A stretch of 64,000 bases of DNA from Salegentibacter agarivorans (lineage in GTDB: Bacteria > Bacteroidota > Bacteroidia > Flavobacteriales > Flavobacteriaceae), in contig NZ_FOOH01000002.1 of assembly GCF_900113135.1 (NCBI RefSeq), forward strand, positions 62,001-126,000, read 5' to 3'. Position numbers and translations under genes: made by a program. The notes beneath the pieces are model-generated. The model searched no databases, was not told the origin of the DNA, and worked only from the letters and a program-made list of their open reading frames with translations. Positions 47,411 to 63,648 of this stretch are shown one piece after another (the first letter of the stretch is position 1; the number at the start of each line of letters is the position of its first letter).

Positions 47411-48286
47411 ATGAGCGTTTTAGTCAATAAAAATTCAAAAATAATAGTGCAGGGATTTACCGGTAGCGAAGGTACTTTTCACGCTGAACAAATGATAGAA
47501 TACGGAACCAATGTTGTTGGAGGTGTAACTCCCGGTAAAGGAGGTCAAAAACACCTTAATAAACCGGTTTTTAATACAGTATCTGAGGCTGTTGAAAAAA
47601 CAGAGGCAGATGTTTCAATAATCTTTGTACCACCGGCTTTTGCTGCAGATGCAATTATGGAAGCTGCAGATGCAGGTATTAAAGTAATTATTACAATTAC
47701 AGAAGGTATTCCTGTTGCCGATATGGTAAAAGCATACGATTATATTCAGGATAAAGATTGCCGTTTGGTAGGTCCTAACTGTCCGGGTGTAATTACTCCG
47801 GGAGAAGCAAAAGTTGGGATTATGCCAGGTTTTGTTTTCAAAAAAGGAAAAGTAGGAATTGTATCTAAATCGGGTACTTTAACTTACGAAGCAGCAGATC
47901 AGGTTGTAAAACAAGGTCTTGGAATTACCACTGCAATTGGTATTGGTGGAGATCCAATTATTGGAACCACTACTAAAGAAGCCGTAGAATTATTGATGAA
48001 CGACGAAGAAACCGAATGCATCGTAATGATTGGTGAAATTGGAGGTCAATTAGAAGCAGATGCGGCTAAGTGGATTAAAGAAAATGGAAACAGAAAACCG
48101 GTTGTAGGTTTTATCGCCGGAGAAACTGCACCAGCAGGCCGTACAATGGGGCACGCAGGAGCAATTGTAGGCGGCAGCGAAGATACCGCCCAAGCCAAAA
48201 AAGCTATTCTAAAAGAAAATGGAATTCACGTTGTTGATTCTCCAGCTGAAATTGGAAAAAAAGTAGCCGAAGTTATGAAAGGATAA
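47411..48286 (+). CDS. sucD: Succinate-CoA ligase, alpha subunit
   Basis: The 291-residue protein binds CoA through the N-terminal Rossmann motif [14 protein letters not shown] (about residues 15-28) and carries the phosphohistidine loop [10 protein letters not shown] (about 246-255). It matches SucD in length and motif order. With SucC (not in the window) it makes succinate and ATP or GTP from succinyl-CoA in the TCA cycle. A TACTTTTG -7-like box lies at 47380-47387. It is followed by a clear terminator. Confidence 0.97.
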
Positions 48287-48309
48287 TATCTGGCTTAAAA
48301 CTATATTAA

Positions 48310-48356
48310 AATCCTCCTTATTTGGCATAATGGCTAAATACAGGAGGATTTTTTAT
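48310..48356 (+). terminator. Intrinsic terminator after sucD
   Basis: Stem AATCCTCCT..TATTTGGC paired with GCTAAATA..AGGAGGATT, loop about ATAATG, followed by a T-run. Confidence 0.85.
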
Positions 48357-48418
48357 TTCTTGCCTTCAGCTTTTGCTATATTTGAAACTATTAAATAAAC
48401 ACCAATCTTTTTATAAAT

Positions 48419-49165
48419 ATGAAATTATTAGAAGGAAAAAATGCCATAATAACCGGTGGTAGTCGCGGAATAGGGAAAGGTATTGCAGAAGTGTTTGCAC
48501 AACACGGGGCAAATGTAGCTTTTACCTATAACTCTTCGGCCGAATCTGCAAATGCACTAGCCGATGAATTAAGTAAACTTGGAGTAAAAGCTAAAGCTTA
48601 CCAGTCTAATGCGGCAAGTTTTAAGGAAGCAGAGCAATTGGTAAAGGATGTAGCTGCCGATTTTGGAGATATAGATATTGTGGTTAATAATGCCGGAATC
48701 ACCAAAGACAACTTGCTAATGCGAATGAGCGAAGAAGATTTTGATAAGGTGATTGAAGTTAATCTGAAATCTATCTTTAATATGACCAAAGCTGTACAGC
48801 GCACTATGCTGAAGCAACGCAAAGGAAGTATTATTAATATGAGTTCGGTAGTTGGAGTTACCGGAAACGCCGGCCAGGCAAATTACGCAGCCTCAAAAGC
48901 CGGGATTATTGGTTTTTCTAAATCTATGGCACAGGAACTTGGTTCCAGGAATATTAGAACCAACGTGATTGCTCCAGGATTCATAGAAACCGAAATGACA
49001 GAAAAGCTTGATGAAAAAGTTGTGGATGGATGGAGACAGGCTATCCCGTTAAAACGAGGTGGAGCTCCAGAAGATATTGCAAACGCCTGTGTCTTTCTTG
49101 GCAGCGACCTTAGTTCTTATATTACCGGCCAGGTACTTCACGTAGACGGCGGAATGCACACCTAG
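48419..49165 (+). CDS. fabG: 3-oxoacyl-ACP reductase
   Basis: The 248-residue protein is a short-chain dehydrogenase. It has the NADPH glycine motif TGGSRGIGKG (about residues 12-21), NNAG (about 90), catalytic Ser in SSVVGV, and Tyr/Lys in YAASKAG. The C-terminal end IAPGFIETEMTEKL and LHVDGGMHT are typical of FabG, which reduces 3-oxoacyl-ACP in fatty acid elongation as a tetramer. A TATATTTG -7-like box at 48377-48384 has a TTG only 14 nt upstream. Confidence 0.94.
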   Translation: MKLLEGKNAIITGGSRGIGKGIAEVFAQHGANVAFTYNSSAESANALADELSKLGVKAKAYQSNAASFKEAEQLVKDVAADFGDIDIVVNNAGITKDNLLMRMSEEDFDKVIEVNLKSIFNMTKAVQRTMLKQRKGSIINMSSVVGVTGNAGQANYAASKAGIIGFSKSMAQELGSRNIRTNVIAPGFIETEMTEKLDEKVVDGWRQAIPLKRGGAPEDIANACVFLGSDLSSYITGQVLHVDGGMHT

Positions 49166-49231
49166 TCAGATAAAAGTGAATAGTTATTAGTTAAAAGATT
49201 TACCATTAACTTTTAACTCTATTTCCCATAA

Positions 49232-51262
49232 ATGAATATAAGCAACATCATACTCATAGCCCTGGCCATAATTACTGCGCTGGGGTTTGCTTTTTTTCAG
49301 TATCTCTTTAAGAATAAAAATAAAAGAAGGGAAATTTACATTCTTTTTGCTCTACGATTTTTCTCAGTCTTTATACTTCTTTTGCTACTTATTAATCCTA
49401 AAATTTCTTCAACAACTTACGAACTCGAAAAACCGAATTTAATTTTGGCTGTAGATGATTCTGAATCTATCGCGCATTTAGAGCAGGAAGATACAGTGCG
49501 GGATATTTTAGAAGACTTAAAGTCGAATAAAGCGCTTCAGGAGCGTTTTGAGTTGGTGCAATATAACTTTGAGAATGAACTGATAAACTCTAACACACCC
49601 GAATTTAAAGCTTCCCAAACCAATATTTACGCTGCGCTGGAATCATTAAAAGAATTATTTCGAAAAAAAGCTACGGCCGTAATTCTTATTTCTGACGGTA
49701 ATCAAAGCACGGGTAGGGATTTTCGTTACTTTAAACCCGGAAATAACCAGGAAATTTATCCCTTAGTGGTAGGTGATACCACGCAATATTCAGATTTAGA
49801 ATTAGCTCAACTTAATGTAAATACCTACGCTTTTTTAGATAATCGCTTTCCCGTTGAAGCTTTTATTTCCTATTCTGGCGAAGAACAAATAAATTCAGAA
49901 TTCGTAATTAAATCTGAGGAGAATATAATTTTTTCAGAAAAAATTTCTCTTAATTCAGATAACAATTCGGCTGTAATTCGTACTGAGCTTCCGGCTTCAA
50001 AGCTTGGTGTTCTTTCTTATAAAGCCGAAATTATTCCGTTAGAAAATGAAAAAAACAAAGCAAATAATTCTAAAAAGTTTGCCGTTGAAGTCATTGACGA
50101 ACGCAGTAAAATTCTGTTAATAAGTGCTGCGCCACATCCCGATATAGGAACTTTTAAAAAGTCTATTGAAACCAATAAACAACGACAACTTGATATAAAA
50201 TATCTTCAGGATAATTTATCAAATTTAGAAGATTATCAGCTAGTTATATTGTACCAGCCAACTTCAGGTTTTGCCACTATCTTTGAAGATTTAAAAGAGA
50301 ATAATCAAAATTACCTACTGGTTACTGGAACTCAAACCGATTGGAATTTTATTAATAGAATTCAGGATTTTGTGGCAAAAGATTTTACTAATCAGTCACA
50401 GGAAATTTTTGCTGTAAAAAATTCCAATTTTATTCAATTTCAGTTTGAAGAAACCGGGTTTTCAGAATTTCCTCCGTTGGAAGATAAGTTTGGAAATATC
50501 AATATTCAAAATAATAGTTTTGAAAGCATTTATTTTCAGAAAATTGAAAATGTAGAAACTTCACAGCCTTTAATCGCTATTGCCGGAAAAGGCCAAAATA
50601 AAAATGCCTTTATTTTTGGAGAAAATCTCTGGAGATGGCGTTCTAATACCTTTTTAGAGCATAAATCTTTTGAAAAATTTGATAATTTTATTGGTAAGCT
50701 GGTTCAGAATATTGCTTCAACACAACAACGAGAACGATTAACAGTAGATTATAATTCATTTTATTACGAAAATGAAGCTGTAAAAATAACCGCTAATTTC
50801 TTCGATCAAAATTATCAGTTTGATCCTAACGCGAACCTGGTGATTTCCGCAGAAAATGCTGTAGAGAATCTAGAGTCTCAATTAGTTCTAAGAAACAACG
50901 GTTATGAAGTAGATTTAGGCAATTTACCTGCCGGAAATTATGATTTTACTATTACCGAAACAACATCTCAAATATCCCGTTCAGGTAGCTTTGAAGTAAT
51001 TGCCTACAATATTGAGCAGCAGTTTATTTCAGCTAATAAAAATGCGATGGAGGCGCTTGCAGAAAATTCTGGAACCAGGGTTTATTACAAAGATGAACTT
51101 CAGGAAATAAGCAATGCACTTTTAAGCAACGATAAATACAAACCTGTTCAGAAAAGCCGTCAAAAAATTGTACCTTTGGTAGACTGGTATTACCTTCTAT
51201 TTCTGCTTGTTTTGATACTCACCGCAGAATGGTTTTTCAGAAAATACAAAGGATTAATTTAA
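49232..51262 (+). CDS. VWA-like domain membrane protein, function unknown
   Basis: The 676-residue product has two N-terminal transmembrane helices (about 5-24 and 35-55), a VWA-like domain (about 65-185) with a DDSES metal-site motif at about 75-79 and LISDGNQSTGRD, a long extracytoplasmic region, and a C-terminal helix (about 650-668) just before the basic end. The architecture resembles BatA/BatB-type and other membrane VWA proteins, but no Bat partner is near. It starts 66 nt after fabG, and the prohibitin-family gene follows 14 nt after its stop. Confidence 0.8.
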   Translation: MNISNIILIALAIITALGFAFFQYLFKNKNKRREIYILFALRFFSVFILLLLLINPKISSTTYELEKPNLILAVDDSESIAHLEQEDTVRDILEDLKSNKALQERFELVQYNFENELINSNTPEFKASQTNIYAALESLKELFRKKATAVILISDGNQSTGRDFRYFKPGNNQEIYPLVVGDTTQYSDLELAQLNVNTYAFLDNRFPVEAFISYSGEEQINSEFVIKSEENIIFSEKISLNSDNNSAVIRTELPASKLGVLSYKAEIIPLENEKNKANNSKKFAVEVIDERSKILLISAAPHPDIGTFKKSIETNKQRQLDIKYLQDNLSNLEDYQLVILYQPTSGFATIFEDLKENNQNYLLVTGTQTDWNFINRIQDFVAKDFTNQSQEIFAVKNSNFIQFQFEETGFSEFPPLEDKFGNINIQNNSFESIYFQKIENVETSQPLIAIAGKGQNKNAFIFGENLWRWRSNTFLEHKSFEKFDNFIGKLVQNIASTQQRERLTVDYNSFYYENEAVKITANFFDQNYQFDPNANLVISAENAVENLESQLVLRNNGYEVDLGNLPAGNYDFTITETTSQISRSGSFEVIAYNIEQQFISANKNAMEALAENSGTRVYYKDELQEISNALLSNDKYKPVQKSRQKIVPLVDWYYLLFLLVLILTAEWFFRKYKGLI

Positions 51263-51276
51263 ATACAATTATATAG

Positions 51277-52095
51277 ATGGAAAGATTACCTAAACTCGGA
51301 ATTCCTATTATTATAGGAATCGTACTTTTAATAATATTTGTTGCAAAATCTACTGTTACCATAGGTTCTGGTGAAGCCGGTGTGCTTTATAAAACTTTTG
51401 GTGGCGGTGTAGTTACAGATGAGCCACCGTTAAATGAAGGTTTTCACCTGGTAGCTCCCTGGAACAGGGTTTTTGTTTATGAAGTAAGACAACAGTCGCT
51501 GGAAGAACAAATGCAAGTGCTAAGTTCTAACGGACTTCAAATTGATATTGATGCTTCTACCTGGTTTCAACCTTCTTATGCAAACCTGGGAAGCCTACAC
51601 AGGGAAAAAGGTGAAGAATATATTAGGCGTTTACTTCAACCCGCAGTAAGATCAGCTGCAAGATCTGTTGTAGGAAGATATAACCCAGAGCAACTTTATG
51701 CCAGTAAGAGAGAAGCTATTCAGAAAGAGATCTTAGAAGAAACTCAAATTTTGCTACAGGACCAATATGTACAGGTAAACGAGGTTTTGGTACGTGATGT
51801 ATCCCTTCCGCCAAATATTAAAGATGCGATTGAGCGTAAATTACGCCAGGAGCAGGAATCTTTAGAATATGAATTTCGCTTGACCAAAGCTGAACAAGAA
51901 GCCGAACGTCAACGAATTGATGCTGAAGGTAAAGCTCGTGCTAACGAAATCTTAAACGCCTCTTTAACACCCAATATTCTAAAGGAAAAAGGAATTCAGG
52001 CAACATTAGAACTTGCGAAATCGGGTAACTCTAAAACCGTTATTATAGGTTCAGGTGAAGATGGTATGCCTTTAATTTTAGGTGGTTCAAATTAA
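51277..52095 (+). CDS. Prohibitin-family (SPFH/band 7) membrane protein
   Basis: This 272-residue protein has one N-terminal transmembrane helix (about 8-28) and an SPFH domain (about 30-190; GSGEAGVLYKTFGG, LREKGEEYIRR-type stretches) followed by a long charged coiled coil (about 195-240, rich in Glu, Arg and Lys). Prohibitin-like proteins assemble into large ring or cage structures at membranes and hold proteases or organise membrane domains. It lies between the VWA-like gene and the serine hydrolase. The functional partner is not shown. Confidence 0.9.
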   Translation: MERLPKLGIPIIIGIVLLIIFVAKSTVTIGSGEAGVLYKTFGGGVVTDEPPLNEGFHLVAPWNRVFVYEVRQQSLEEQMQVLSSNGLQIDIDASTWFQPSYANLGSLHREKGEEYIRRLLQPAVRSAARSVVGRYNPEQLYASKREAIQKEILEETQILLQDQYVQVNEVLVRDVSLPPNIKDAIERKLRQEQESLEYEFRLTKAEQEAERQRIDAEGKARANEILNASLTPNILKEKGIQATLELAKSGNSKTVIIGSGEDGMPLILGGSN

Positions 52096-52105
52096 ACTAT
52101 TAAAG

Positions 52106-53404
52106 ATGAGATCTATTTTATTAAATATCGCAAGGCTTTCTATTTTTATAGGAAGCCTTGCTCTTTCTGCACAAACCAGTTCTTTAAATAATTCGGGAAC
52201 ACTTGAAACAGCTGCTCCCGAAGAAGTTGGAATGTCTTCAGAAAGGATACAGAAGATTGAAGCAATGCTAAAATCGGCAATTGAAGATAACCAAATTCCC
52301 GGAGCGGTAGCTTTAATAGCTCGCGACGGCAAAATTGTTTTTCACGAAGCATTTGGAGATGCAAATGCTTCAGGTAAAGAGCTTGAAAAGGACGCTATTT
52401 TTAGGTTGGCTTCTCAAACAAAAGCGATTACTGCAACTGCCGTGATGATGCTTTGGGAAGAAGGGAAGTTCCGTTTAGACGATCCTATTTCAAAGTATAT
52501 CCCTGAATTTAAAGATCCCAAAATTCTAAAGAATTTTAATGAAGTTGATAGTAGTTTTACTTCTACGCCAGCTGAGAATGAAATAACTATTCGGCATTTG
52601 CTAACACATACTTCCGGACTTGGTTATGGAGCAATAGACAGTGACGAGCGTATTAAAAAGATTTATGCAAAGGCTGGAATTACCGAATTGTTCACTGAAG
52701 AAGAAGTAAGGATTGGAGAAAATGTAAAAAAATTGGCTGTTTTACCTTTACATCACGAACCCGGTGAAAAATTCACTTATAGTTTAGGTTTAGATGTACT
52801 GGGTTATTTTATAGAAGTAATTTCAGGACAGGGTTTTGATGAATTTCTGAAAGAAAGAATTTTCGATCCTCTGCAAATGGATGACACCAGGTTCTATCAA
52901 CCTTCATCGAAAAAAGATCGGTTAGTGACTGTACAGCATAAAAAAGATGGAAAATGGGAAAACTTTCCGAATACATTTTATAATACCAATTATCCGCTAA
53001 CAGAAGATGGGACATTTTTTTCAGGAGGAGCCGGGCTATCGGGTACCGCAGAAGATTATGCTAAATTCCTTCAAATGTATCTAAATGGAGGTGAATATAA
53101 TGGTACTCGCTTATTAAGTCGAAAAACGGTAGATATCATAATGGGAAATCAAACAGGAGAAAAATTTAATTTTCCAAATCAGTACTATGGTATTGCCTTT
53201 GGCGTAGTTAGCAAAAAAGGAGAAATTGCAGGAGGGCAGGGTAGTGCCGGTACTTTTGATTGGGGTGGTTATTTCAATACCCAGTATTTCGCCGATCCCG
53301 AAGAGCAAATAATTGGTGTTTTGTTGAAGCAAACTCAAGGAAATACCGGTGATGAAACCGGCTGGAAATTCCGGCAAATGATTTTTAGTGCCATAGATGA
53401 TTAG
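52106..53404 (+). CDS. Secreted serine hydrolase of the beta-lactamase class C family
   Basis: I use the ATG at 52106 (432 residues), since it begins a clear signal peptide (MRSILLNIARLSIFIGSLALSAQ); an earlier in-frame start at 52082 only adds residues before it. The SxxK motif is SQTK (about residue 112), the second motif is in TYSLGLDVLG and the third is a HGG-like VSKKGEIAGGQGSAG region. Proteins of this fold act as esterases, D-amino-acid peptidases or beta-lactamases; the substrate is unknown. It overlaps the prohibitin stop region by none, with a 10-nt gap, and is the last gene of the cluster. Confidence 0.9.
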   Translation: MRSILLNIARLSIFIGSLALSAQTSSLNNSGTLETAAPEEVGMSSERIQKIEAMLKSAIEDNQIPGAVALIARDGKIVFHEAFGDANASGKELEKDAIFRLASQTKAITATAVMMLWEEGKFRLDDPISKYIPEFKDPKILKNFNEVDSSFTSTPAENEITIRHLLTHTSGLGYGAIDSDERIKKIYAKAGITELFTEEEVRIGENVKKLAVLPLHHEPGEKFTYSLGLDVLGYFIEVISGQGFDEFLKERIFDPLQMDDTRFYQPSSKKDRLVTVQHKKDGKWENFPNTFYNTNYPLTEDGTFFSGGAGLSGTAEDYAKFLQMYLNGGEYNGTRLLSRKTVDIIMGNQTGEKFNFPNQYYGIAFGVVSKKGEIAGGQGSAGTFDWGGYFNTQYFADPEEQIIGVLLKQTQGNTGDETGWKFRQMIFSAIDD

Positions 53405-53518
53405 TATATAGAATCAATTGAATTTTACTGCAAATGCAAACTTCAACAGATTTTCAGAAAATTATCTCAAGTATTATTCCGAAATAGTAAAATGAGTAAT
53501 TTAGATCTAACAGGCCTC

Positions 53519-53550
53519 GGAGCATTTAAATATAGATTATCGAGTAAAAC
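53519..53550. repeat. Element shared with 63573-63606
   Basis: GGAGCATTT followed by GATTATCGAGTAAA recurs at 63573-63606 and, inverted and partial (GTTTTACTCGGTAAT), at 63666-63680. Nature unknown; it lies just upstream of the his promoter. Confidence 0.5.
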
Positions 53551-53577
53551 AATTCATAAAAAAACAAGAAAGCTGTT

Positions 53578-53606
53578 TTGCAGTTTAAAATTTATATTTA
53601 GATTTG
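53578..53606 (+). promoter_or_regulatory. Promoter of the histidine operon
   Basis: TTG at 53578-53580, an 18-nt spacer and TAGATTTG at 53599-53606 match the Bacteroidota consensus. Transcription would start near 53612, a few nt before the leader peptide ATG. Confidence 0.75.
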
Positions 53607-53614
53607 TAATCACA

Positions 53615-53671
53615 ATGAAGAATTTTCAATTAGATCACCATCATATTTACTACTGCGCTCAGGCGAGGTAA
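53615..53671 (+). CDS. Histidine operon leader peptide (18 aa, three tandem His)
   Basis: ATG at 53615, TAA at 53669-53671; the peptide is MKNFQLDHHHIYYCAQAR. The three His codons occupy 53636-53644. A terminator hairpin follows 30 nt after the stop and hisG 107 nt after it. The run of His codons in a short ORF directly upstream of hisG marks a translation-coupled attenuator. An in-frame ATG at 53492 would extend it to 59 codons, but the promoter at 53578-53606 lies inside that extension, so the short form is preferred. Confidence 0.85.
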   Translation: MKNFQLDHHHIYYCAQAR

Positions 53672-53715
53672 ATTTGGTGTGTTGTGATTTCAGCATATTT
53701 AAAACCCGTTTGAGC
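53657..53715 (+). promoter_or_regulatory. Antiterminator pair of the his attenuator
   Basis: GCTCAGGCG at 53657-53665 can pair with CGTTTGAGC at 53707-53715 (two G-U pairs), which takes over the left arm of the terminator. A ribosome stalled on the His codons (to 53644) would leave 53657 on free, while a ribosome at the stop codon (53669) would cover it. A second pairing joins the His-codon region to 53668-53688 (GTAAAT..GTGTTGTGAT). Confidence 0.65.
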
Positions 53716-53735
53716 TATTCAAACGGGTTTTTTTA
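53701..53735 (+). terminator. his operon attenuator terminator
   Basis: Stem AAAACCCGTTTGA paired with TCAAACGGGTTTT, loop GCTAT, followed by a T-run, between the leader peptide and hisG. Confidence 0.9.
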
Positions 53736-53778
53736 TTTTATAAACACCAACCAAAAATTAAAAAGAAAAATTAAAAAA

Positions 53779-54642
53779 ATGAGCCAGGAAAAATTAAGAA
53801 TAGCTATTCAAAAATCAGGGAGATTAAACGAAGATTCCCTTAAAATTTTAAAGGATGCAGGCATTTCTATAGATAATGGAAAAGAACAACTCAAAGCTTC
53901 GTCTCGTAACTTTCCTTTGGAAGTAATGTATCTTAGAAACGGTGATATTCCTCAATATTTAAGAGATGGTGTTGTAGATGCAGCAATTATTGGGGAGAAT
54001 GTTTTAATTGAAAAGGGTAAAGATATTATCCAGGGCGAAAAACTTGGCTTTTCAAAATGTCGTGTTTCTCTCGCTGTACCAAAATCTATGAAATATGCCG
54101 GAATAGAAGACCTTGATGGTAAAAAAATAGCCACTTCTTATCCTAATACCGTAAACGAATTTCTGGAGAAAAAAGGAATTACAGCCGAATTGCATATTAT
54201 TAATGGTTCAGTAGAAATAGCTCCAAATATTGGGCTTGCAGATGGTATTTGTGATATTGTTTCCAGTGGAAGCACGCTTTTCAAAAACGGACTAAAAGAA
54301 GTAGAAGTAATGCTGAAGAGTGAAGCTGTGCTCGCTATTTCACCTAAAATTTCGGAAGTTCGTCAACAGATTTTAGAGAAATTACAATTCAGGTTGAAAT
54401 CGGTTTTAAATGCGCGTACTTCTAAATATATTCTTTTAAATGCTCCAAATGAGAATTTAGAGAACATAATCAAATTACTACCTGGAATGCGCAGCCCAAC
54501 TGTTTTACCACTTGCTGAAGAAGGTTGGAGTTCTATACATACCGTAATTAATGAAGAGCGTTTCTGGGAAGTTATAGATGAATTAAAACAAAATGGTGCC
54601 GAAGGTATTTTAGTAGCGCCAATCGAAAAAATGGTACTTTAA
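53779..54642 (+). CDS. hisG: ATP phosphoribosyltransferase, long form
   Basis: The ATG at 53779 begins MSQEKLRIAIQKSGRL, the usual start, and gives 287 residues; an upstream in-frame extension crosses the attenuator and is rejected. HisG joins PRPP and ATP in the first step of histidine synthesis. The catalytic domain (about 1-210) has ADGICDIVSSGSTL, the PRPP loop. A C-terminal ACT-like regulatory domain (about 215-287) makes this the long form, which is inhibited by histidine and needs no HisZ. No hisZ was seen. hisD follows after 1 nt. Confidence 0.97.
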   Translation: MSQEKLRIAIQKSGRLNEDSLKILKDAGISIDNGKEQLKASSRNFPLEVMYLRNGDIPQYLRDGVVDAAIIGENVLIEKGKDIIQGEKLGFSKCRVSLAVPKSMKYAGIEDLDGKKIATSYPNTVNEFLEKKGITAELHIINGSVEIAPNIGLADGICDIVSSGSTLFKNGLKEVEVMLKSEAVLAISPKISEVRQQILEKLQFRLKSVLNARTSKYILLNAPNENLENIIKLLPGMRSPTVLPLAEEGWSSIHTVINEERFWEVIDELKQNGAEGILVAPIEKMVL

Positions 54643-54643
54643 A

Positions 54644-55927
54644 ATGAAAAAGTTTTTTAATCCTACTAAAGCCGAATGGCCTGAAATTTTAAAAAGACCC
54701 ACCCAAACCGTAGAAGATATTGAAGAAACGGTAAATCAGGTTTTTGCTGAAGTTAAAACCAAAGGGGACGCGGCAGTTTCAAAATATACCGAACTTTTTG
54801 ATGGCATAAACCTAACAAATACTCAGGTTACCGAAAAAGAAGTAAGTGCTGCTGCAAATGAGGTTTCCGAGGAATTGAAAGAAGCCATTAAATTGGCTAA
54901 AAATAACATCGAAAGATTTCACACCGCCCAGAAAACCGATAGGATTGAAATTGAAACTACCAAAGGCGTAAAATGTTGGCAGGAAAAGAGGGCGATTCAA
55001 AAAGTTGGGTTGTATATTCCTGGCGGCAGCGCTCCTTTATTTTCTACTATTTTAATGTTAGCCGCACCCGCAAATATTGCTGGTTGTAAGGAAATTGTGC
55101 TTTGTACTCCGCCAGATAAGAACGGAAATGTGCATCCAGCCATTTTATACACCGCCGAACTGTGTGGCGTTACCAAAATATATAAAGTTGGGGGAATCCA
55201 GGCGATTGCGGCTATGACCTTTGGGACAGAAAGTATTCCTAAAGTTTACAAGATCTTTGGTCCCGGAAATCAATTTGTTACCGTGGCTAAACAACTGGCA
55301 ACCCGCCATAATGTAGCGATAGATATGCCTGCCGGGCCATCAGAATTATTAGTTTTTGCAGATGATTCTTCCAATGCTGCTTTTGTGGCTTCAGATCTTC
55401 TAAGCCAGGCAGAGCACGGTGCAGATAGCCAGGTGATTTTGGTTTCTACTTCTAAAGATCTAATTGAAAAGGTGGAGAAAGAGGTAGAAAGTCAGTTAGA
55501 GGTTTTACCCAGGAAAAGTATTGCTGAAAAGGCTATAGCTCATTCGAGACTAATTTACATTGAAAAGAAAGAAGACGCGCTGGAGTTAATCGACGAATAT
55601 GGGCCAGAGCACTTTATTATTTGTGCCGATGATGAGGCCTTTTTTGCTGCAGGAATTCAGAATGCAGGTTCGGTTTTTATAGGAAACTATACCCCAGAAA
55701 GTGCGGGCGATTATGCTTCAGGAACAAACCATACTTTGCCAACAAATGGCTACGCCAAGCAATATAGCGGTGTAAATCTTGATAGTTTTATGAAGAGTAT
55801 GACTTTTCAAAAAATAACAGAAGAAGGAATTAAGGAAATTGGGCCTGCCATAGAATTAATGGCTGAAGCCGAAGGTTTGGAAGCGCATAAAAATGCGGTG
55901 ACATTACGATTAAAGGAATTGAAATAA
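54644..55927 (+). CDS. hisD: Histidinol dehydrogenase
   Basis: The 427-residue zinc enzyme oxidises histidinol to histidine in two NAD-dependent steps, the last step of the pathway. Family motifs include GLYIPGGSAPLFST, the IGPG-type KIFGPGNQFV region, DMPAGPSE, SQAEHGADSQ with the catalytic His, and PEHFI, GNYTPESAGDYASGTNHTLPT near the C-terminus. The length is normal. It follows hisG directly; the gap to hisC holds a repeat of family C. Confidence 0.97.
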   Translation: MKKFFNPTKAEWPEILKRPTQTVEDIEETVNQVFAEVKTKGDAAVSKYTELFDGINLTNTQVTEKEVSAAANEVSEELKEAIKLAKNNIERFHTAQKTDRIEIETTKGVKCWQEKRAIQKVGLYIPGGSAPLFSTILMLAAPANIAGCKEIVLCTPPDKNGNVHPAILYTAELCGVTKIYKVGGIQAIAAMTFGTESIPKVYKIFGPGNQFVTVAKQLATRHNVAIDMPAGPSELLVFADDSSNAAFVASDLLSQAEHGADSQVILVSTSKDLIEKVEKEVESQLEVLPRKSIAEKAIAHSRLIYIEKKEDALELIDEYGPEHFIICADDEAFFAAGIQNAGSVFIGNYTPESAGDYASGTNHTLPTNGYAKQYSGVNLDSFMKSMTFQKITEEGIKEIGPAIELMAEAEGLEAHKNAVTLRLKELK

Positions 55928-55950
55928 TTGTTCAAGTGACTTTTGGACCT

Positions 55951-56025
55951 CATTGCGAGGCACGAAGCAATCTTTAAATTGTGGTAACTAAATGTTGAGA
56001 TTGCTTCACTTTGTTCGCAATGACG
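55951..56025. repeat. Dispersed inverted repeat, family C
   Basis: CATTGCGAGGCACGAAGCAATCT and its near-inverse GAGATTGCTTCACTTTGTTCGCAATGACG face each other across a short spacer. It fills the hisD-hisC gap. Confidence 0.75.
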
Positions 56026-56049
56026 ATTTAATCCAATTTAATATTATAA

Positions 56050-57096
56050 ATGAAAAAATTCAATATACATAACCTGGTAAGGCCAAACGTGGCCGGTTTA
56101 AAACCTTATTCTTCCGCAAGGGACGAATACCAGTCTACGGGCTCAGAAATGGTTTTTCTGGATGCTAATGAAAATCCGTTTCAAACCGATGTAAACCGTT
56201 ATCCAGATCCGCAACAACGCAACCTAAAGGCTGAATTGGCAAAAATCAAAAATGTTTCGACAGAGCATATTTTATTGGGAAATGGGAGCGATGAAGTGCT
56301 GGATCTATTGTTTAGGGCATTTTGTGAGCCTGGAACTGATAATGTGATTACTTTGCCGCCAACTTATGGGATGTATAAAGTACTGGGCAATATCAATAAT
56401 ATTGAGAATAGGGAAGTTTTGCTGAGTTCAGATTTTGAACCAAATGTTGAAGAAATCCTGAATTCGGTAGACCAAAACACAAAAATGATCTTTTTGTGTT
56501 CGCCGAATAATCCCACCGGAAACTCATTTTCCGAACAAAAGATCATTCATATTCTTGAGAATTTTAAGGGATTAGTAATTATCGATGAAGCTTATATTGA
56601 TTTTTCGACTGAAGAAAGCTGGCTAAATAAATTGGAAAAATACCCAAATTTGGTGATCACCCAAACGCTTTCAAAAGCATATGGAATGGCGGGAATTAGA
56701 TTGGGAATTTGCTATGCTTCCGAAGAAATTATTCAGATTTTAAATAAGATAAAACCACCTTATAATGTAAACGAATTAACTCAGCTAAGAGCTTTAGAGC
56801 GTGTACTGAATAAGGAAAAAGTGGATTCGGAAATATCTGATTTACTGAAGGAAAGAGCTCTTTTAAGTAAAGCATTAGTTCAAGTGAATTTTATTGAAAA
56901 AATATATCCTTCAGATGCTAATTTTATATTGGTAAAAGTAGATGACGCCAATAAACGTTATGACCAACTATTAGAAAAAGGCATAGTAATCAGAAACCGA
57001 ACCACACAACCGCTTTGTGAAAATACCTTACGGTTTACGGTGGGGACTGGAGAGGAGAATTATAAATTACTTGAGGCATTGAAACATATAGATTAA
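56050..57096 (+). CDS. hisC: Histidinol-phosphate aminotransferase
   Basis: This 348-residue PLP aminotransferase of fold type I converts imidazole-acetol phosphate to histidinol phosphate. It shows LDANENPFQTDVNRYPDP at the start, NNPTGN, IDEAYIDF, and the PLP lysine in TLSKAYGMAGIRLG (about residue 212), then RNRTTQPLCENTLRFTVGT. Length is normal. A repeat of family A separates it from hisB. Confidence 0.96.
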   Translation: MKKFNIHNLVRPNVAGLKPYSSARDEYQSTGSEMVFLDANENPFQTDVNRYPDPQQRNLKAELAKIKNVSTEHILLGNGSDEVLDLLFRAFCEPGTDNVITLPPTYGMYKVLGNINNIENREVLLSSDFEPNVEEILNSVDQNTKMIFLCSPNNPTGNSFSEQKIIHILENFKGLVIIDEAYIDFSTEESWLNKLEKYPNLVITQTLSKAYGMAGIRLGICYASEEIIQILNKIKPPYNVNELTQLRALERVLNKEKVDSEISDLLKERALLSKALVQVNFIEKIYPSDANFILVKVDDANKRYDQLLEKGIVIRNRTTQPLCENTLRFTVGTGEENYKLLEALKHID

Positions 57097-57103
57097 ACGT
57101 AAG

Positions 57104-57183
57104 CGTCATCCTGAACTGGTTTCAGGATCTAAGTTGTTAGCATAAAAACATATTATAAGCTGAAACAAGTTCAGCTTGAATTG
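57104..57183. repeat. Dispersed palindromic repeat, family A
   Basis: CGTCATCCTGAACTGGTTTCAGGATC on the left and AAGCTGAAACAAGTTCAGCTT on the right, with a spacer of about 30 nt. It occupies the hisC-hisB gap. Confidence 0.85.
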
Positions 57184-57213
57184 GTGGTTAGACCATCGAA
57201 GAAAAAATAGATT

Positions 57214-58356
57214 ATGAAAAAAGTATTATTTATAGATCGTGATGGGACTTTAATTCACGAACCGGAAGATTACCAGGTAGACCGTATTGAAAAGCTGGAG
57301 TTTTATCCGGAGGCTTTGTATTATTTAAAGAAAATTGCCGCAGAACTTGATTTCGAATTGGTAATGGTGACTAATCAGGATGGCCTGGGAACAGATGCTT
57401 ATCCTGAAGAAGACTTTTGGCCTATTCAAAATTTTATTCTTCAAACCTTTAAAAATGAAGGAGTGGAATTTACAGAGGTTTTGATGGACCGTACTTTTGC
57501 AAAAGATAATTCTCCCACCCGGAAACCTAACACCGGCCTTTTAGAGGAGAAGTATCTAAATAACGAAGAAAACTACGATCTAAAGAATTCTTTTATGGTC
57601 GGTGACCGACTTACAGATATTGAATTTGCATATAATTTTGGTGGGAAAGGTATATTTATAGATACCCACGAAGACCTTGCATCTGATGAGGTTAAAAATG
57701 ATCAGGATAAGGTTAAAGAAACTATTGTTTTAAAAACCGATAGTTGGAAAGAAATATATGAATTTTTAAAGCTGAACGATAGAACGGCTGAAATTTCAAG
57801 GAAAACCAAAGAAACCGATATCTTTATTCAACTAAATTTAGATGGTACCGGAAAATCTGATATTAGTACCGGCATTGCATTTTTTGATCATATGTTAGAT
57901 CAGATAGCACGCCACGGCCAAATGGATCTTACGGTTCAGGTAAAGGGCGATTTAGAGGTTGATGAGCACCACACCATAGAAGATACGGCAATTGCTCTTG
58001 GAGAGGTTTTCAGTAAAGCTTTGGGTAATAAACTTGGAATAGAAAGATACGGTTTTTGCCTGCCTATGGACGATTGCCTGGCACAAGTAGCTATAGATTT
58101 TGGAGGTAGAAACTGGATAGTTTGGGAAACCGAATTTAAACGAGAAATGGTTGGAAAAATGCCTACAGAAATGTTCTATCATTTCTTTAAATCATTTACC
58201 GATGGTGCTAAGGCCAACCTCAATGTAAAAGCTGAAGGGCAAAACGAGCATCATAAAATTGAAGCGATATTTAAGGCCTTTGCCAAAGCAATTAAAGTAG
58301 CGGTAAAACGCGATGCTGAAAAAATGATACTTCCATCAACTAAAGGAATGCTTTAA
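57214..58356 (+). CDS. hisB: Bifunctional histidinol-phosphatase / imidazoleglycerol-phosphate dehydratase
   Basis: The 380-residue fusion has an N-terminal HAD phosphatase (about 1-165; FIDRDGTLI at residues 6-14 and [10 protein letters not shown]) and a C-terminal IGPD (about 185-380; [14 protein letters not shown] and [15 protein letters not shown]). It catalyses steps 6 and 8 of the pathway. In E. coli the phosphatase half binds zinc through a C-x-H..C-x-C loop; here the loop reads [15 protein letters not shown] and has no cysteine or histidine there, so the phosphatase must be stable without zinc. The gap to hisH contains an inverted repeat. Confidence 0.95.
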
Positions 58357-58367
58357 AAGATTTTAGA

Positions 58368-58431
58368 TATGAGTATTGAGTAATTAGATATTTTAAGGAA
58401 ACTCAAAACTCAATGCTTAATACTCAATAAT
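58368..58431. repeat. Dispersed inverted repeat, family D
   Basis: GAGTATTGAGTAATTAG and the near-inverse CTTAATACTCAATAA face each other, with ACTCAAAACTCAATG between. It fills most of the hisB-hisH gap. Such GAGTATTGAGT elements also occur as tandem arrays in related genomes (recalled). Confidence 0.6.
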
Positions 58432-58436
58432 AGAAT

Positions 58437-59039
58437 ATGAAGATTGTAATAATAGATTACGGAGCCGGTAATATTCAAAGTATCAAATTTGCCATAAAAC
58501 GACTTGGATATGAGGCTATTTTAAGTAGTGATGCCGAAGAAATAAAGTCAGCAGATAAAGTAATTTTCCCCGGTGTGGGCGAGGCCAGCAGTGCAATGAA
58601 AATGCTAAAGTCTACCGGTTTAGATAAAGTGATTCCTACTTTGAAACAGCCGGTTTTAGGGATTTGCCTGGGAATGCAGTTAATGTGTACTTATTGCGAG
58701 GAAGGAGATACAGACGGACTTGGAATTTTTCATGCTGATGTGGTGAAATTCGATAACCAATTAAAAGTTCCGCAAATTGGGTGGAATAAAATTTATGATT
58801 TAAGGTCCGAGTTGTTTACCGGAATTTCAGAAGGAGAATTCGTGTATTTGGTACATAGTTTTTATGTAAAGGAATGCGCAGAAACCATAGCTTCAACCGA
58901 GTATGGAGTGGAATACACTTCGGCTATTCAAAAAGATAATTTCTATGGTGTACAATTTCACCCAGAGAAAAGCAGTGATGCGGGTGAGAAAATTCTTGAG
59001 AATTTTTTGAAAGTCACCCAATCCAACACGGTAAAGTAG
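58437..59039 (+). CDS. hisH: Imidazole glycerol phosphate synthase, glutaminase subunit
   Basis: The 200-residue protein is a class I glutamine amidotransferase. The nucleophile Cys is in GICLGMQLM (about residue 80) and the His-Glu pair in VQFHPEKS. HisH releases ammonia from glutamine and passes it through a tunnel to HisF, with which it forms a heterodimer. Length is normal. It is followed by a family C repeat. Confidence 0.97.
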   Translation: MKIVIIDYGAGNIQSIKFAIKRLGYEAILSSDAEEIKSADKVIFPGVGEASSAMKMLKSTGLDKVIPTLKQPVLGICLGMQLMCTYCEEGDTDGLGIFHADVVKFDNQLKVPQIGWNKIYDLRSELFTGISEGEFVYLVHSFYVKECAETIASTEYGVEYTSAIQKDNFYGVQFHPEKSSDAGEKILENFLKVTQSNTVK

Positions 59040-59051
59040 ATTTAAAGACGA

Positions 59052-59144
59052 CGTCATTGCGATGGAGGCACGACTGAAGCAATCTGTTCAACCAGAAAAT
59101 TTCTAGCAAAAGATTATCACGCTCCTTTGTCGCTCGTAATGACA
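59052..59144. repeat. Dispersed inverted repeat, family C (degenerate)
   Basis: CGTCATTGCGATGGAGGCACGACTGAAGCAATCTG on the left and the diverged inverse with CGCTCGTAATGACA on the right. It fills most of the hisH-hisA gap; compare the copy at 55951-56025. Confidence 0.7.
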
Positions 59145-59214
59145 TAGAGAAGCAAAATTGATAATAAAACAAAACATTAGTGCATTCGTGGCAAAACAAT
59201 AAGTAAAAACAAAA

Positions 59215-59952
59215 ATGAGAATAATTCCAGCTATAGATATTATTGAAGGTAAATGTGTTCGCCTTTCTAAAGGTGATTATAACACCAAGAAAATTTATAA
59301 TGAAAATCCGCTAGAAGTAGCTAAAAATTTTGAAGCACATGGAATTCAATATTTGCATTTGGTAGATTTGGATGGTGCCAAATCAAAAAATATCGTAAAC
59401 CATAAAGTTCTGGAAGAGATCGTTTCAAAAACCAGCTTAAAAGTTGATTTTGGCGGCGGATTAAAAACCGATAAAGATTTACAAATTGCTTTTGAATGCG
59501 GTGCGCATCAAATTACCGGTGGAAGTATTGCTGTTAAAGATCCAGATATTTTTAAATCCTGGATTCAGAAATTTGGTTCAGATAAAATAATCCTGGGAGC
59601 TGATGCCAACAATGAAAAAATTGCAGTTAGTGGGTGGCAGGAAGAATCTAATAAAGAACTAATCCCTTTTATTCAGGAATACCAGGAAGAGGGAATAAAC
59701 TATGTAATTTGCACCGATATCTCTAAAGATGGAATGTTAGAAGGTCCTTCCTTTGAACTGTATCGCAGAATTCTGGAAGAGACTTCATCAGAAGATAAAA
59801 AACTAAAACTTATCGCTTCGGGTGGAATTTCTACCTTTAGCGAGTTACCGGAACTGGCTGAACTTGGATGCGAAGGCACTATAATAGGAAAAGCGATTTA
59901 CGAAGGCCGTATTCAGATGAAAGAATTAGAGAAATTTATAATAGCCCCCTAG
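59215..59952 (+). CDS. hisA: Phosphoribosylformimino-5-aminoimidazole carboxamide ribotide isomerase
   Basis: The 245-residue TIM-barrel enzyme opens the ring of ProFAR to PRFAR. It starts with [17 protein letters not shown], the two-fold related half has [12 protein letters not shown], and ends with LIASGGIST and [13 protein letters not shown]. These are HisA signatures and set it apart from HisF. Length is normal, and hisF follows after about 50 nt. Confidence 0.96.
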
Positions 59953-60001
59953 CCTCCAAAAGGGAAATCAAAAAGTATTTATTTAATACAAAACTTTTAA
60001 A

Positions 60002-60757
60002 ATGCTTACAAAACGAATTATACCCTGCCTGGATATTAAAGACGGAAGAACCGTTAAGGGCGTAAATTTTATAGATTTACGCGATGCCGGTGATCCTGTA
60101 GAATTGGCTGAGATCTATGCAAAATCTGGTGCAGATGAATTGGTTTTCCTTGATATCTCGGCTACTGAAGAGAAGCGAAAAACCCTGGCCAATTTGGTTA
60201 GACGGGTTGCCGAAAAAGTAAACATTCCGTTTACCGTTGGCGGTGGAATTTCATCAGTAGAAGATGTAGATATTTTGCTTAAAAATGGCGCCGATAAAGT
60301 TTCTATAAATTCTTCTGCGGTTAAAAATCCTGATTTGATTAATGAACTTGCAGCTAAATTCGGGAGTCAGTGTATAACTGTGGCGATAGATGCCAAGCAG
60401 GTAAACGGCGAATGGTTGGTACATTTGGTTGGTGGAAAAGTGCCTACCGATATCAATTTATTTCAATGGGCGAAAGAAGTTGAAGAACGTGGTGCCGGAG
60501 AAATTTTATTTACTTCTATGAATAATGATGGAACTAAAGAAGGCTTTGCTAATGAAGCCCTGGCAGTTTTATCTTCAGAATTAAATATTCCGATCATCGC
60601 CTCAGGTGGTGCCGGAAATATGCAGCATTTTTGCGATACTTTTATTGAAGGAAAAGCTGATGCAGCACTTGCAGCCAGTGTTTTTCACTTTAAAGAAATT
60701 GAAATTAAAGATTTAAAAGAGGAACTTCGTAGAAATGGAGTGGAAGTTAGGCTTTAA
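60002..60757 (+). CDS. hisF: Imidazole glycerol phosphate synthase, cyclase subunit
   Basis: The 251-residue TIM barrel starts [20 protein letters not shown] and has [13 protein letters not shown], the catalytic Asp in PCLDI (about residue 11) and Asp in [11 protein letters not shown] (about 175). HisF makes imidazole glycerol phosphate and AICAR from PRFAR with ammonia from HisH. The start lies inside the hisA-hisF gap, which has no repeat but is short. Confidence 0.97.
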
Positions 60758-60822
60758 ATAATAGCATGAAAAAAGAGAAGAGAAGATAGAATAGAGAAAC
60801 AAGCTTGATTGGTGGTATATTT

Positions 60823-60957
60823 CGTCAAGCTGAACTTGTTTCAGCTTCTAACCCGTTTGAAATAATCCTGAAGTTTTGGGTTAGCATGAGGGTTTCAAAG
60901 CTTATAAAACTGTTTCTATTAATACAAATATACATCCTAAAATAAATTAGGATGACG
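60823..60957. repeat. Dispersed palindromic repeat, family A (long, disrupted copy)
   Basis: Left end CGTCAAGCTGAACTTGTTTCAGCTTCTAAC, then about 70 nt of unrelated or decayed sequence (including AAATAATCCTGAAGTTTTGGGTTAGCATGAGG), and right unit TCCTAAAATAAATTAGGATGACG. The right end overlaps a possible upstream ATG of hisIE at 60952. Confidence 0.75.
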
Positions 60958-60972
60958 TATAAAAATATAATG

Positions 60973-61590
60973 ATGAATATAGATTTTAATAAAAATAACG
61001 ACGGACTTATTCCTGCGATAATTCAGGATGCTTCGACCAAAAATGTGTTGATGCTAGGATATATGAACGAGGAAGCATTTTTGAAAACCAATGAAACCAA
61101 GAAAGTCACTTTTTTCAGCAGGACTAAAAATCGTTTATGGACCAAAGGCGAAGAAAGCGGTAATTACCTTCATTTAGTCAATATTAAAAATGATTGCGAT
61201 AATGATACCTTGCTAATTTCGGTTAAACCTGAAGGTCCAACCTGCCATAAAGGAACAGATACTTGCTGGGCAGAGGATAATGAGCCTAATTTCGGTTTTC
61301 TTTCTCATTTGGAAGGAATTATCGCTAAACGAAAAAGGATGAGCGAGGTGGAGCCTGAGTTACGAGAAGATAAAAATTCTTATGTGGTTTCACTTTTTGA
61401 GGCGGGAATGAATAAAATTGCCCAAAAAGTAGGTGAGGAAGCTGTAGAAACGGTTATTGAAGCCAAAGATGATAATGAAGAGTTATTCTTAAACGAAAGC
61501 GCCGATTTACTTTTTCATTACTTGATTCTGCTAAGAGCAAAAGGTTATTCCCTAAAAGATATCGCTGAAGTTTTGGAAAACAGACATTAA
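60973..61590 (+). CDS. hisIE: Bifunctional phosphoribosyl-AMP cyclohydrolase / phosphoribosyl-ATP pyrophosphatase
   Basis: I choose the ATG at 60973 (205 residues; MNIDFNKNNDG). The ATG at 60952 is inside the repeat and would add seven residues. HisI (about 1-105) has the zinc-site cysteines in NDCDNDT and PTCHKGTDTC; HisE (about 115-205) has the acidic MutT-like helix VGEEAVETVIEAKDDN. It catalyses steps 2 and 3 of the pathway. It is the last gene of the operon, and no terminator was recognised after it. Confidence 0.95.
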   Translation: MNIDFNKNNDGLIPAIIQDASTKNVLMLGYMNEEAFLKTNETKKVTFFSRTKNRLWTKGEESGNYLHLVNIKNDCDNDTLLISVKPEGPTCHKGTDTCWAEDNEPNFGFLSHLEGIIAKRKRMSEVEPELREDKNSYVVSLFEAGMNKIAQKVGEEAVETVIEAKDDNEELFLNESADLLFHYLILLRAKGYSLKDIAEVLENRH

Positions 61591-61648
61591 AAAAGAGACT
61601 TAGCCAATATGTTTTGAAGGAACTGTTATTAGTTTGCTAAATGCAGCG

Positions 61649-62107
61649 TTATTTCTTTGCATCATTTATTTCTAACCAGTTTCCGTCAGGGTCGGTGATA
61701 TAAATTTGTTTTACTCCGTCAACACGATTGGTAACCGTTTGTTTTTCTCCAAGCCAGTTTTCATAAGGTATTTTATTTTTTTCCAAAACCTTAATAAAAT
61801 CAGGAACAGATGGAACAGACAGGGAAAGATGGCTGTTTTTATCGGGTTCAATAATGGTAGATGCTCCTTTAATTAAATGCAGTTGAACATTTGACCCCAA
61901 AGTAAACCAGGTATGTTTACCATCCTTAAAAGGTTCGGGTATTTTTTCTAACCCAATGATGTTTTCATAGAAATTGGTGCTTTTTTCAAGATCAACTACA
62001 TAAACTGCGATATGATCGATAGTGATTTTAGAATTAAGATCCTGAGCTTTTGTAGAAAGCGTAATAAATATGAAGAATAAGGAAATTAAAATCAATGATT
62101 TTTTCAT
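61649..62107 (-). CDS. VOC-superfamily protein with signal peptide (glyoxalase-like)
   Basis: This 152-residue protein has a signal peptide (about residues 1-21, ending TKAQ) and a single VOC domain, with metal-ligand candidates His in KITIDHIAVYV, His in VQLHLIKG, and Glu in GNWLEIND. VOC proteins isomerise or cleave small molecules or act as binding proteins; the reaction is not shown. It converges with hisIE. Secreted VOC proteins are less usual than cytoplasmic ones. Confidence 0.82.
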   Translation of the reverse strand: MKKSLILISLFFIFITLSTKAQDLNSKITIDHIAVYVVDLEKSTNFYENIIGLEKIPEPFKDGKHTWFTLGSNVQLHLIKGASTIIEPDKNSHLSLSVPSVPDFIKVLEKNKIPYENWLGEKQTVTNRVDGVKQIYITDPDGNWLEINDAKK

Positions 62108-62266
62108 ATAGTTTTGTTGTTTAATGAAACCAATATTTAGCTGTAGTAATAATATTAATCTTTGACGGTTAGCTCAATTTTAAATTCTCTAAACAAATAT
62201 ATAAGTAAGATGTAATGGAAGCCGAAAATAGGACTTCCATTACATAATAGTTTCCATTTTAATACT

Positions 62267-62665
62267 CTAAATACTTTCTGCAGCAAAATTTGCAACTGCG
62301 TGATCGTTTTCTACAGAACTTCCAGAAACTCCTACTGCTCCAATAATTTCACCGCTTTTGTTTTTTAAAGGCACGCCACCAGGAAACGTTATAAGTCCGT
62401 TGTTGGAATGCTCAATATTGAAAAGTGCTTCACCGGGTTGTGACAATTTTCCAATTTCGCCAGTATTCATATCAAAAAACCTGGCAGTCTTAGCCTTTTT
62501 AATGGCAATATCTACCGAGCCCAGCCAGGCGCCGTCCATCCTGGCAAAAGCGGTTAGGTTTGCGCCAGAGTCTACTACCGCAATATCCATTTTCACATCT
62601 AATTCTTTCGATTTCTTTTCGGCGGCAGCAATTACTTTTTGTGCTTGTGCTAAAGTGATATTCAT
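62267..62665 (-). CDS. GlcG/HbpS-family haem-binding-like protein
   Basis: The 132-residue protein matches the GlcG/HbpS (DUF336) family, with [19 protein letters not shown] and the C-terminal [18 protein letters not shown]. Family members bind haem or cobalamin-like ligands or assist degradation pathways, and their role is mostly unclear. It has no signal peptide. The gap to the VOC gene is about 160 nt and is AT-rich. Confidence 0.88.
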
Positions 62666-62744
62666 AGTTTAAGGTTTTTAATTTGTCCTAAATTATATAA
62701 TCAAAAACGGAATATATTGATTTTAAGAGGAATATAACGAATAT

Positions 62745-63485
62745 TTAATCTTTGTTCCTCACGTAAATTAATTTGAATTTACTGCTTTGGTTGGTTCGGG
62801 ATTCAATTTCAAATTTATCTATAGAATGAATCATAGGGGTAAGTTTCTGAAAGCCATAGTTACGCGAATCAAAATTAGGTTGTTTTTTCTGAAGTAAACT
62901 TCCTACATCTCCAAGAAACGCCCAACCGTCTTCATCGGCAACATCTGAAATTGTTTGAGAAATAAGCCTTACCACTTTTGGAGTAATTTTATCTACGTTT
63001 TTCTTTTTGGAAGTTTTTCCGCCTTTTTCGCTTTCTTGCTCATTATCCTTATCAGAACTCTTTAAAATTTCAATATAAATAAAGCGGTCGCAAGCTACAA
63101 TAAATGGTTCCGGGGTTTTCTTTTCTCCAATTCCAATTACATTTTTTCCTGCTTCACGCAGTCTTGTAGCTAATCTTGTGAAATCACTATCGCTGGAAAC
63201 CAGGCAAAAACCATCTACTTTATCTGAATACAAAATATCCATGGCGTCTATGATCATTGCAGAATCTGTCGCGTTTTTCCCCTGGGTGTAACCATATTGC
63301 TGAATAGGATTTATTGCGTTTTCCAACAAAACATTTTTCCATTTTACCAAATGGGGTTTTGTCCAGTCACCGTAAATCCTTTTAATAGTGGGATTACCGT
63401 ACTTGGCAATCTCTTCCATCATTTCTTTTATATATGCTGATGGTATATTATCACCATCAATTAGTACCGCTAGGTTGGTTTCCAT
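62745..63485 (-). CDS. NYN-domain protein with OST-HTH/LOTUS domain (LabA-like)
   Basis: This 246-residue protein has an N-terminal NYN (PIN-like nuclease) domain (about 1-150; LIDGDNIPSAYI, with Asp pairs, and SSDSDFTRLATRLREAGKN) and a C-terminal OST-HTH domain (about 165-240; PKVVRLISQTISDVADEDGWAFLGDVGSLLQ). The conserved acidic residues suggest RNase activity, and OST-HTH suggests RNA binding. Target RNA is unknown. It is a single-gene unit with no toxin-like partner. Confidence 0.9.
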   Translation of the reverse strand: METNLAVLIDGDNIPSAYIKEMMEEIAKYGNPTIKRIYGDWTKPHLVKWKNVLLENAINPIQQYGYTQGKNATDSAMIIDAMDILYSDKVDGFCLVSSDSDFTRLATRLREAGKNVIGIGEKKTPEPFIVACDRFIYIEILKSSDKDNEQESEKGGKTSKKKNVDKITPKVVRLISQTISDVADEDGWAFLGDVGSLLQKKQPNFDSRNYGFQKLTPMIHSIDKFEIESRTNQSSKFKLIYVRNKD

Positions 63486-63572
63486 AGAATCTATTATTTA
63501 AAGTATACTACTCCGGAGCAAGCTCACGAAGCATTATTATTGGAAAATATAATTTGATCTCGAGTTAAGTTT

Positions 63573-63606
63573 GGGAGCATTTAATCTCGATTATCGAGTA
63601 AAGATA
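63573..63606. repeat. Element shared with 53519-53550
   Basis: GGGAGCATTTAATCTCGATTATCGAGTAAAGAT is about four-fifths identical to 53519-53550. A partial inverted copy (GTTTTACTCGGTAAT) lies at 63666-63680, with a terminator between. Confidence 0.5.
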
Positions 63607-63617
63607 CTTTTTTTGCA

Positions 63618-63648
63618 TAAAAAAGACGGCTGTACGCCGTCTTTTCCT
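63618..63648 (-). terminator. Intrinsic terminator of the baeRF-like gene
   Basis: Stem AAAAGACGGC paired with GCCGTCTTTT, loop TGTAC, with a T-run on the correct side for leftward transcription. Confidence 0.85.

Follow-up and report, generated by a model that had tools for sequence, protein, structure and literature searches.

A predicted ribosome-mediated attenuator with a His-rich leader ORF upstream of the histidine operon of Salegentibacter agarivorans and its relatives in class Bacteroidia

The stretch of DNA analysed here (the window, 64,000 nucleotides of the 4.3 Mb genome of Salegentibacter agarivorans) contains a complete histidine operon at 53779-61590 on the forward strand, in the order hisG-hisD-hisC-hisB-hisH-hisA-hisF-hisIE by NCBIfam assignment. 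The first gene, hisG (53779-54642, TIGR00070), encodes a product 98% identical to HisG of Salegentibacter salarius, and identities to the HisG proteins of the 14 same-genus genomes searched range from 91 to 98%. The remaining genes, hisD, hisC, hisB (bifunctional), hisH, hisA, hisF and hisIE, occupy 54644-61590 on the same strand, each scoring above its NCBIfam cut-off. Directly 5' of the hisG operon is a leader region (53599-53735, forward strand) with a promoter box, a leader ORF, an antiterminator arm and a terminator. The coordinates that the initial annotation gave for this region were correct overall, with the small correction that hisG starts at 53779.

A Bacteroidota-type −7 box, TAGATTTG, lies at 53599-53606 and the TTTG of a −33-like element (53577-53580) ends 18 nt 5' of it. 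The consensus TTTG/TANNTTTG, whose −33 element is much less evident, is taken from part of PMC6847099, as is the spacing in Flavobacterium johnsoniae, where the G of the −7 box is at −5. By this spacing the transcript is predicted to start near 53611, 4 nt 5' of the leader ATG. With its G at −10, the box in the window does not fit the F. johnsoniae consensus TAHHTTTG given in the same source (PMC6847099). A sigma-70 consensus scan of 48000-64000 returned 54 sites, compared with 52.2 in shuffled sequence and none of them at the leader, and the Bacteroidota box was preferred.

The leader ORF (53615-53671) comprises 18 codons, MKNFQLDHHHIYYCAQAR, from the ATG at 53615 up to 53668, followed by a TAA stop at 53669-53671. 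Three adjacent His codons, CAC CAT CAT, are found at 53636-53644; they recur in relatives and are the candidate regulatory codons. Both the length of this peptide and the position of its His codons had been annotated correctly. Same-genus relatives have a run of 4-5 His codons, as compared to three in the window strain, where positions 53633-53635 are GAT (Asp) at the place of the first His codon of these relatives. The identical His to Asp (GAT) change is found at two other loci (L016 and L076).

Folding, a terminator scan and alignment identified an intrinsic terminator at 53701-53735, in which a stem of 53701-53713 with 53719-53731 is followed by a T tract. The arm GCTCAGGCG (53657-53665) pairs at 9 of 9 positions, two of them G-U, with 53707-53715, as the initial annotation had proposed, and folding adds 53667-53669 paired with 53704-53706. 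The antiterminator arm thus extends over 53657-53669 with A53666 bulged, and 53704-53715 is the part of the terminator shared with the antiterminator. The folding energy of 53612-53735 is 4.7 sd below that of dinucleotide shuffles, and the arm-terminator duplex of the window copy (−18.8 kcal/mol) was reached by 0 of 100 shuffles. An inner hairpin between arm and terminator (53676-53699) belongs to the antiterminator fold. It is the alternative to a protector or pause hairpin seen in the minimum free energy structure (53632-53690), in which 53632-53651 pairs with 53667-53690 and encloses the arm. Among 194 regions tested for pairing of this protector type, 115 score better than 95% of shuffles; the window copy (L001), at the 17th percentile, does not.

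We simulated folding of the transcript that carries only the 5' half of the terminator (53611-53718), with a ribosome assumed to cover the 18 nt that precede the first base of the A-site codon and the 13 nt that follow it. Whichever of the three His codons the ribosome occupied, the full antiterminator formed (−25.7 kcal/mol), and with the ribosome at the stop codon there was no antiterminator (−3.5 kcal/mol). These modelled folds are consistent with the proposal of the initial annotation that the arm would be free during a His stall and covered during a stop at the TAA. The same partial RNA without a ribosome likewise prefers the antiterminator (−26.2 kcal/mol), and for this reason an untranslated leader may read through, while the protector hairpin at 53632-53690 can form first (−18.8 kcal/mol for 53611-53700). 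A complete terminator has a lower energy than the antiterminator in all states simulated. The switch must therefore be kinetic, decided during transcription.

These features point to a ribosome-mediated transcription attenuator of the his operon with a predicted histidine response, a reading that we hold with high confidence on the sequence evidence. RNA polymerase would start near 53611 and a ribosome would load at once on the AUG at 53615. When charged His-tRNA is scarce, the ribosome is expected to stall with a His codon in its A site and its 3' edge near 53649-53655. This would leave the arm at 53657-53669 free to capture 53704-53715 once transcribed, the terminator would come too late, and the operon would be transcribed. 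When histidine is plentiful, the ribosome would reach the stop codon (53669) and cover the arm, the terminator at 53701-53731 would form, and transcription would end before hisG. The tiny His-rich ORF very probably works as an on/off switch coupled to translation, and most relatives examined have a switch of this kind before their his genes.

The first group of relatives, nearly all Flavobacteriaceae (set 1), was drawn from 110 hisG loci (the best 30 of 45 matches and the best 80 of 172 relatives) that yielded 99 distinct upstream regions. All 99 contain a counterpart of the leader, an ORF 15-20 codons long that opens with ATG and carries a His cluster, together with a terminator-like hairpin. 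The longest His run is 2 in 4 regions, 3 in 39 and at least 4 in 56. Conservation of the His codons in relatives, one of the checks proposed in the initial annotation, was thus borne out, and the antiterminator pairing is kept as well and co-varies between families (see below). An alignment (A1) was built of 63 sequences from 90 references; the 27 left out were near-duplicates and L022, which has a differing terminator, and L068 is also absent, having been dropped for length. RNAalifold returned only the terminator from this alignment, and pairs were counted on named structures instead. The terminator is paired in 95.2% of 819 cells and has three pairs changed on both sides, although sliding it by one column likewise yields three. 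The antiterminator is paired in 92.2% of 756 cells, as compared to at most 48.5% when slid, and its number of paired cells and its covariation score were equalled or exceeded by only 2 and 6 of 500 shuffles, respectively. This helix hardly varies inside Flavobacteriaceae, where a single pair has both of its bases changed, no more than the shuffle mean of 1.0, and Salinimicrobium-type arms contain mismatches. Since the helix is nearly invariant, its covariation within the family is weak evidence, and the antiterminator was therefore tested between families.

For this comparison (set 2) we searched 257 genomes across class Bacteroidia, of which 111 have HisG; the loci of 108 of these and 13 loci remaining from the 45 matches used for set 1 gave 121 loci spanning 47 families (labelled by number) and 70 genera. 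Two partial matches of G052 were left out, as were G231 and two further contig-end fragments. A leader, defined as a short ORF in which some stretch of 6 codons includes at least 3 His, was found in 107 of 121 loci, as compared to 45 of 2420 mononucleotide-shuffled upstream regions, and 41 of the 47 families with HisG have at least one. The finder picks the best His cluster among frames, and a few set-2 leaders may be chance (L193, L208 and L189 among them), as judged from non-ATG starts or odd positions. A terminator-like hairpin accompanies the leader in 100 of the 121 loci (100 of the 107 with a leader), and in 199 of 206 leader-bearing regions when both sets are combined; AT-rich hairpins are sometimes overlooked or wrongly assigned by the terminator finder.

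Compared with 100 shuffles each, the arm-terminator duplex ranks ahead of at least 95 in 154 of the 199 regions, 96/99 in set 1 and 58/100 in set 2, so that 42 of 100 set-2 loci miss the 5% criterion. Set-2 terminators are of several sequence types, including CCCGTTTGAG, GGCTTACC and AGCCACGC, and the arms follow the type. When terminator 5' halves were permuted among the 100 set-2 loci, the mean pairing energy rose from −12.2 kcal/mol for own partners to −9.1 (sd 0.25), a mean cost of 3.1 kcal/mol, and 0 of 2000 permutations was as good. The result held with one locus per family (n = 41; −12.6 against −9.5 kcal/mol, sd 0.38; 0/2000) and with one locus per genus (n = 61), where 0 of 2000 permutations reached the real mean. 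This permutation of means was done after a swap test in which the own partner had a median percentile of 0.17 among foreign-family partners and ranked in the best tenth in 40 of 100 loci, a less striking outcome in which many families share GGCTTACC-type terminators. In 184 of the 199 regions of the two sets the arm starts 16-32 nt past the first His codon (88/100 in set 2, compared with 1170/3000 shuffles); it starts between 18 nt before and 13 nt after the stop codon in 94/99 set-1 and 80/100 set-2 regions.

Several families depart from this arrangement. Fourteen of the 121 set-2 loci have no leader by our criterion, including all 5 of family f57 (L197, L212, L218, L224 and L227), whose genomes are about 2.0-2.3 Mb and may have lost the attenuator or never had one. 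No terminator was found despite a leader in 4 of 8 f54 loci and 3 of 6 f30 loci, and no f54 pairing passes the duplex test. The f54 loci (L183, L187, L190, L192, L194, L203, L220 and L222) have His leaders that lack a strong terminator and show a hairpin spanning the ORF end; they may represent a variant that works through Rho or at the level of translation. Three of them (L183, L187, L203) have short AT-rich hairpins of the form GTTT..AAAC together with a T tract. At six loci of families f30, f17 and f63 (L129, L159, L160, L157, L134, L189) the leader ends in HHSS and a hairpin ATTCCTC../..GAGGAA is found at the stop codon; L129, L159 and L160 share a conserved block GGTGA..TTCACC, and no intrinsic terminator was found there. 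Family f29 (L213, L214, L230) has very short leaders, MHHHHYFCA and MHHHHFCA, in which the His codons begin at codon 2, so that a stall would fall on the first elongation step.

Three other explanations of the leader region were weighed. The hairpin might merely terminate upstream transcription, with the short ORF a chance frame and hisG served by its own downstream promoter. An upstream ORF on the same strand does end at 53404, and the count of terminator-like sites in 48000-64000 (12) does not exceed the shuffle mean (12.0); but a chance frame does not account for the co-occurrence of His-rich ORF, arm and terminator in 99/99 set-1 regions, the co-variation of arm and terminator between families, or the Bacteroidota −7 box directly before the ORF, and we regard this explanation as very improbable. 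That the leader gives rise to a small His-rich protein with a function of its own, such as metal binding, and that its conservation reflects the peptide, is in our estimate extremely improbable. It would fit the QAR or LAR ending of 82/99 set-1 peptides (typical DNA spelling GCTCARGCGAGG), of which AQAR forms the last four residues throughout the same genus. However, the end of the leader is broken in 5/99 set-1 relatives by stops (L061, L062, L025, L028) or a frameshift (L064), and an arm-like sequence is kept in all five, in degenerate form in L028; in these five the selected thing looks like the RNA and not the peptide. Peptides also vary widely between set-2 loci (for example MKTTSHTHHHVCTPIR, MNLTIHHHHHNNTCQ and MHHHHFCA), and across families they share little beyond the His cluster.

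A regulator other than the ribosome, such as a T-box RNA, a riboswitch or an RNA-binding protein, might act on the same terminator, given that the terminator has an alternative fold and that T-boxes control his genes in other phyla according to part of PMC9413887. Such a regulator would leave the His codons and the fixed distance from His codons to arm without a role, and the Rfam 15 scan of the window found no family at its gathering score and no T-box riboswitch match; none of the 17 sub-threshold matches in 53560-53800 is a T-box. We consider control by another regulator to be highly implausible. L10_leader (E 0.008) was rejected at 27.3 bits, with a gathering score of 44 bits.

We compared the ribosome-mediated attenuator with known leader systems. 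The enterobacterial his attenuator has a His-run leader peptide, an intrinsic terminator, an exclusive antiterminator and the his operon downstream. The leader described here shares with this class (RF00514; also PMC9413887, in part) an ORF with a run of His codons, a terminator between the ORF and hisG, the his operon and a mutually exclusive antiterminator, which co-varies between families, and its arm is free or covered in the simulated geometry. It differs in a simpler fold of one arm and one terminator, and in a predicted transcript start that lies about 4 nt 5' of the start codon, which leaves no room for a Shine-Dalgarno sequence. The RF00514 model (His_leader, cut-off 49 bits) found the E. 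coli control and exceeded its cut-off in 0 of 31 genomes; sub-threshold matches occurred in 8 of the 31 (best 40.5 bits), none at his loci, and the host genome had no match. Within the phylum, the Bacteroid-trp element (RF01692) is also a leader-peptide element, with Trp codons and a trp operon; it has no match in the window (L001, cut-off 49 bits), while the trp leader of the same genome (L238) matches at 69.6 bits. His-rich leaders are predicted in Firmicutes, another phylum, before his operons, with three to five His in a row (PMC9413887, in part), and before hisS/hisZ paralogs (PMC2965389, in part), and the string "Bacteroid-" is not mentioned in the main text of either.

Our own covariance model of the his leader (R1) found matches in 42 of 60 genomes, 40 of them just before hisG, among 44 genomes with a HisG match. 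The matches in G019 and G058, genomes without a HisG match, are weak (35.4 and 33.7 bits), and additional matches in some genomes do not exceed about 40 bits. In the host genome the only match is at this his leader.

The attenuator reading of the initial annotation is thus supported, and its description of such attenuation as much less studied in flavobacteria was overstated: RF01692, the Bacteroidete tryptophan peptide leader, appears in Table 1 of PMC2864571, PMC9723704 speaks of "strong clues" for leader-peptide attenuation before amino-acid operons in F. psychrophilum, and short ORFs reminiscent of attenuation leader peptides are noted in part of PMC7366714 for B. thetaiotaomicron. Among the top-ranked titles and abstracts, a partial coverage of the literature, we found no his leader in Bacteroidota. 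The comparative survey that Lopatovskaya, Seliverstov and Lyubetsky published in 2010, cited in PMC4833913, may include Bacteroidetes. Attenuators of this kind are already known in the phylum; neither a his member nor its wide spread turned up in the literature looked at, and priority for predicting it may lie with the 2010 survey.

The near-leaderless start noted in the initial annotation was borne out by the comparison of relatives. In 84 of 99 set-1 loci the leader ATG is preceded, at a distance of 6-9 nt, by the end of a TAnnTTT box with G or A as its next base (G in 64). This predicts a 5' UTR of about 2-5 nt in these, and TAGnTTTG occurs within 20 nt of the ATG in 42 of the 99 regions. 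Among 48 window ORFs of at least 150 aa, only one has TAnnTTTG at 4-10 nt and the other eight boxes end 21-34 nt away. The exact box was found in 74 set-2 loci, within 10 nt in 19 of them, and a distance of 17-20 nt is commoner (25/74). Mycobacterial poly-cysteine short-ORF attenuators are leaderless, with an ORF that starts at or near the transcript 5' end; they have this position in common with the his leader and differ in the amino acid, the phylum (Actinobacteria) and the promoters. Leaderless mRNAs make up 5.5% in F. psychrophilum (PMC9723704, in part).

Of the nine same-genus trp loci, seven have a −7 box whose end is 5 nt from a leader ATG and one has it at 6 nt; the ninth has no box. 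A Trp leader with WWW (for example MKNRIANTWWWKNLRQTS) precedes trpE in 9/9 of these loci (L232-L240), and RF01692 matches both trp leaders tested. The ATG closest to the box in L238 begins a longer trp leader in the same frame, with an 11-codon N-terminal extension. The trp antiterminator fails the duplex test in L232-L240 (ranks 56 to 79 of 100); by eye, GTCGTGA may pair with the terminator loop and 3' half. Screening for leaders before the ilvD and homoserine dehydrogenase genes (loci from 13 genomes each) yielded nothing convincing. We give about even chances to the joint proposal that in the Salegentibacter-Gillisia-Maribacter part of Flavobacteriaceae the amino-acid attenuators (his, and trp in Salegentibacter) are near-leaderless mRNAs with the sensing ORF at the transcript 5' end, in which ribosome loading would be tied to promoter escape, the ribosomes of this phylum not using Shine-Dalgarno sites.

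Ribosome-mediated attenuation works only if the ribosome follows RNA polymerase closely. The presence of the his leader in 41 of 47 families, with its helix rebuilt from other sequence between families, argues that transcription-translation coupling is general in class Bacteroidia, and class-wide presence, if true, would mean that this coupling is close in Bacteroidota. The alignment (A1) and covariance model (R1) are supplied for this element, which has no Rfam 15 match in the window. The leader would offer a native reporter for coupling and for initiation without Shine-Dalgarno sites on nearly leaderless RNA.
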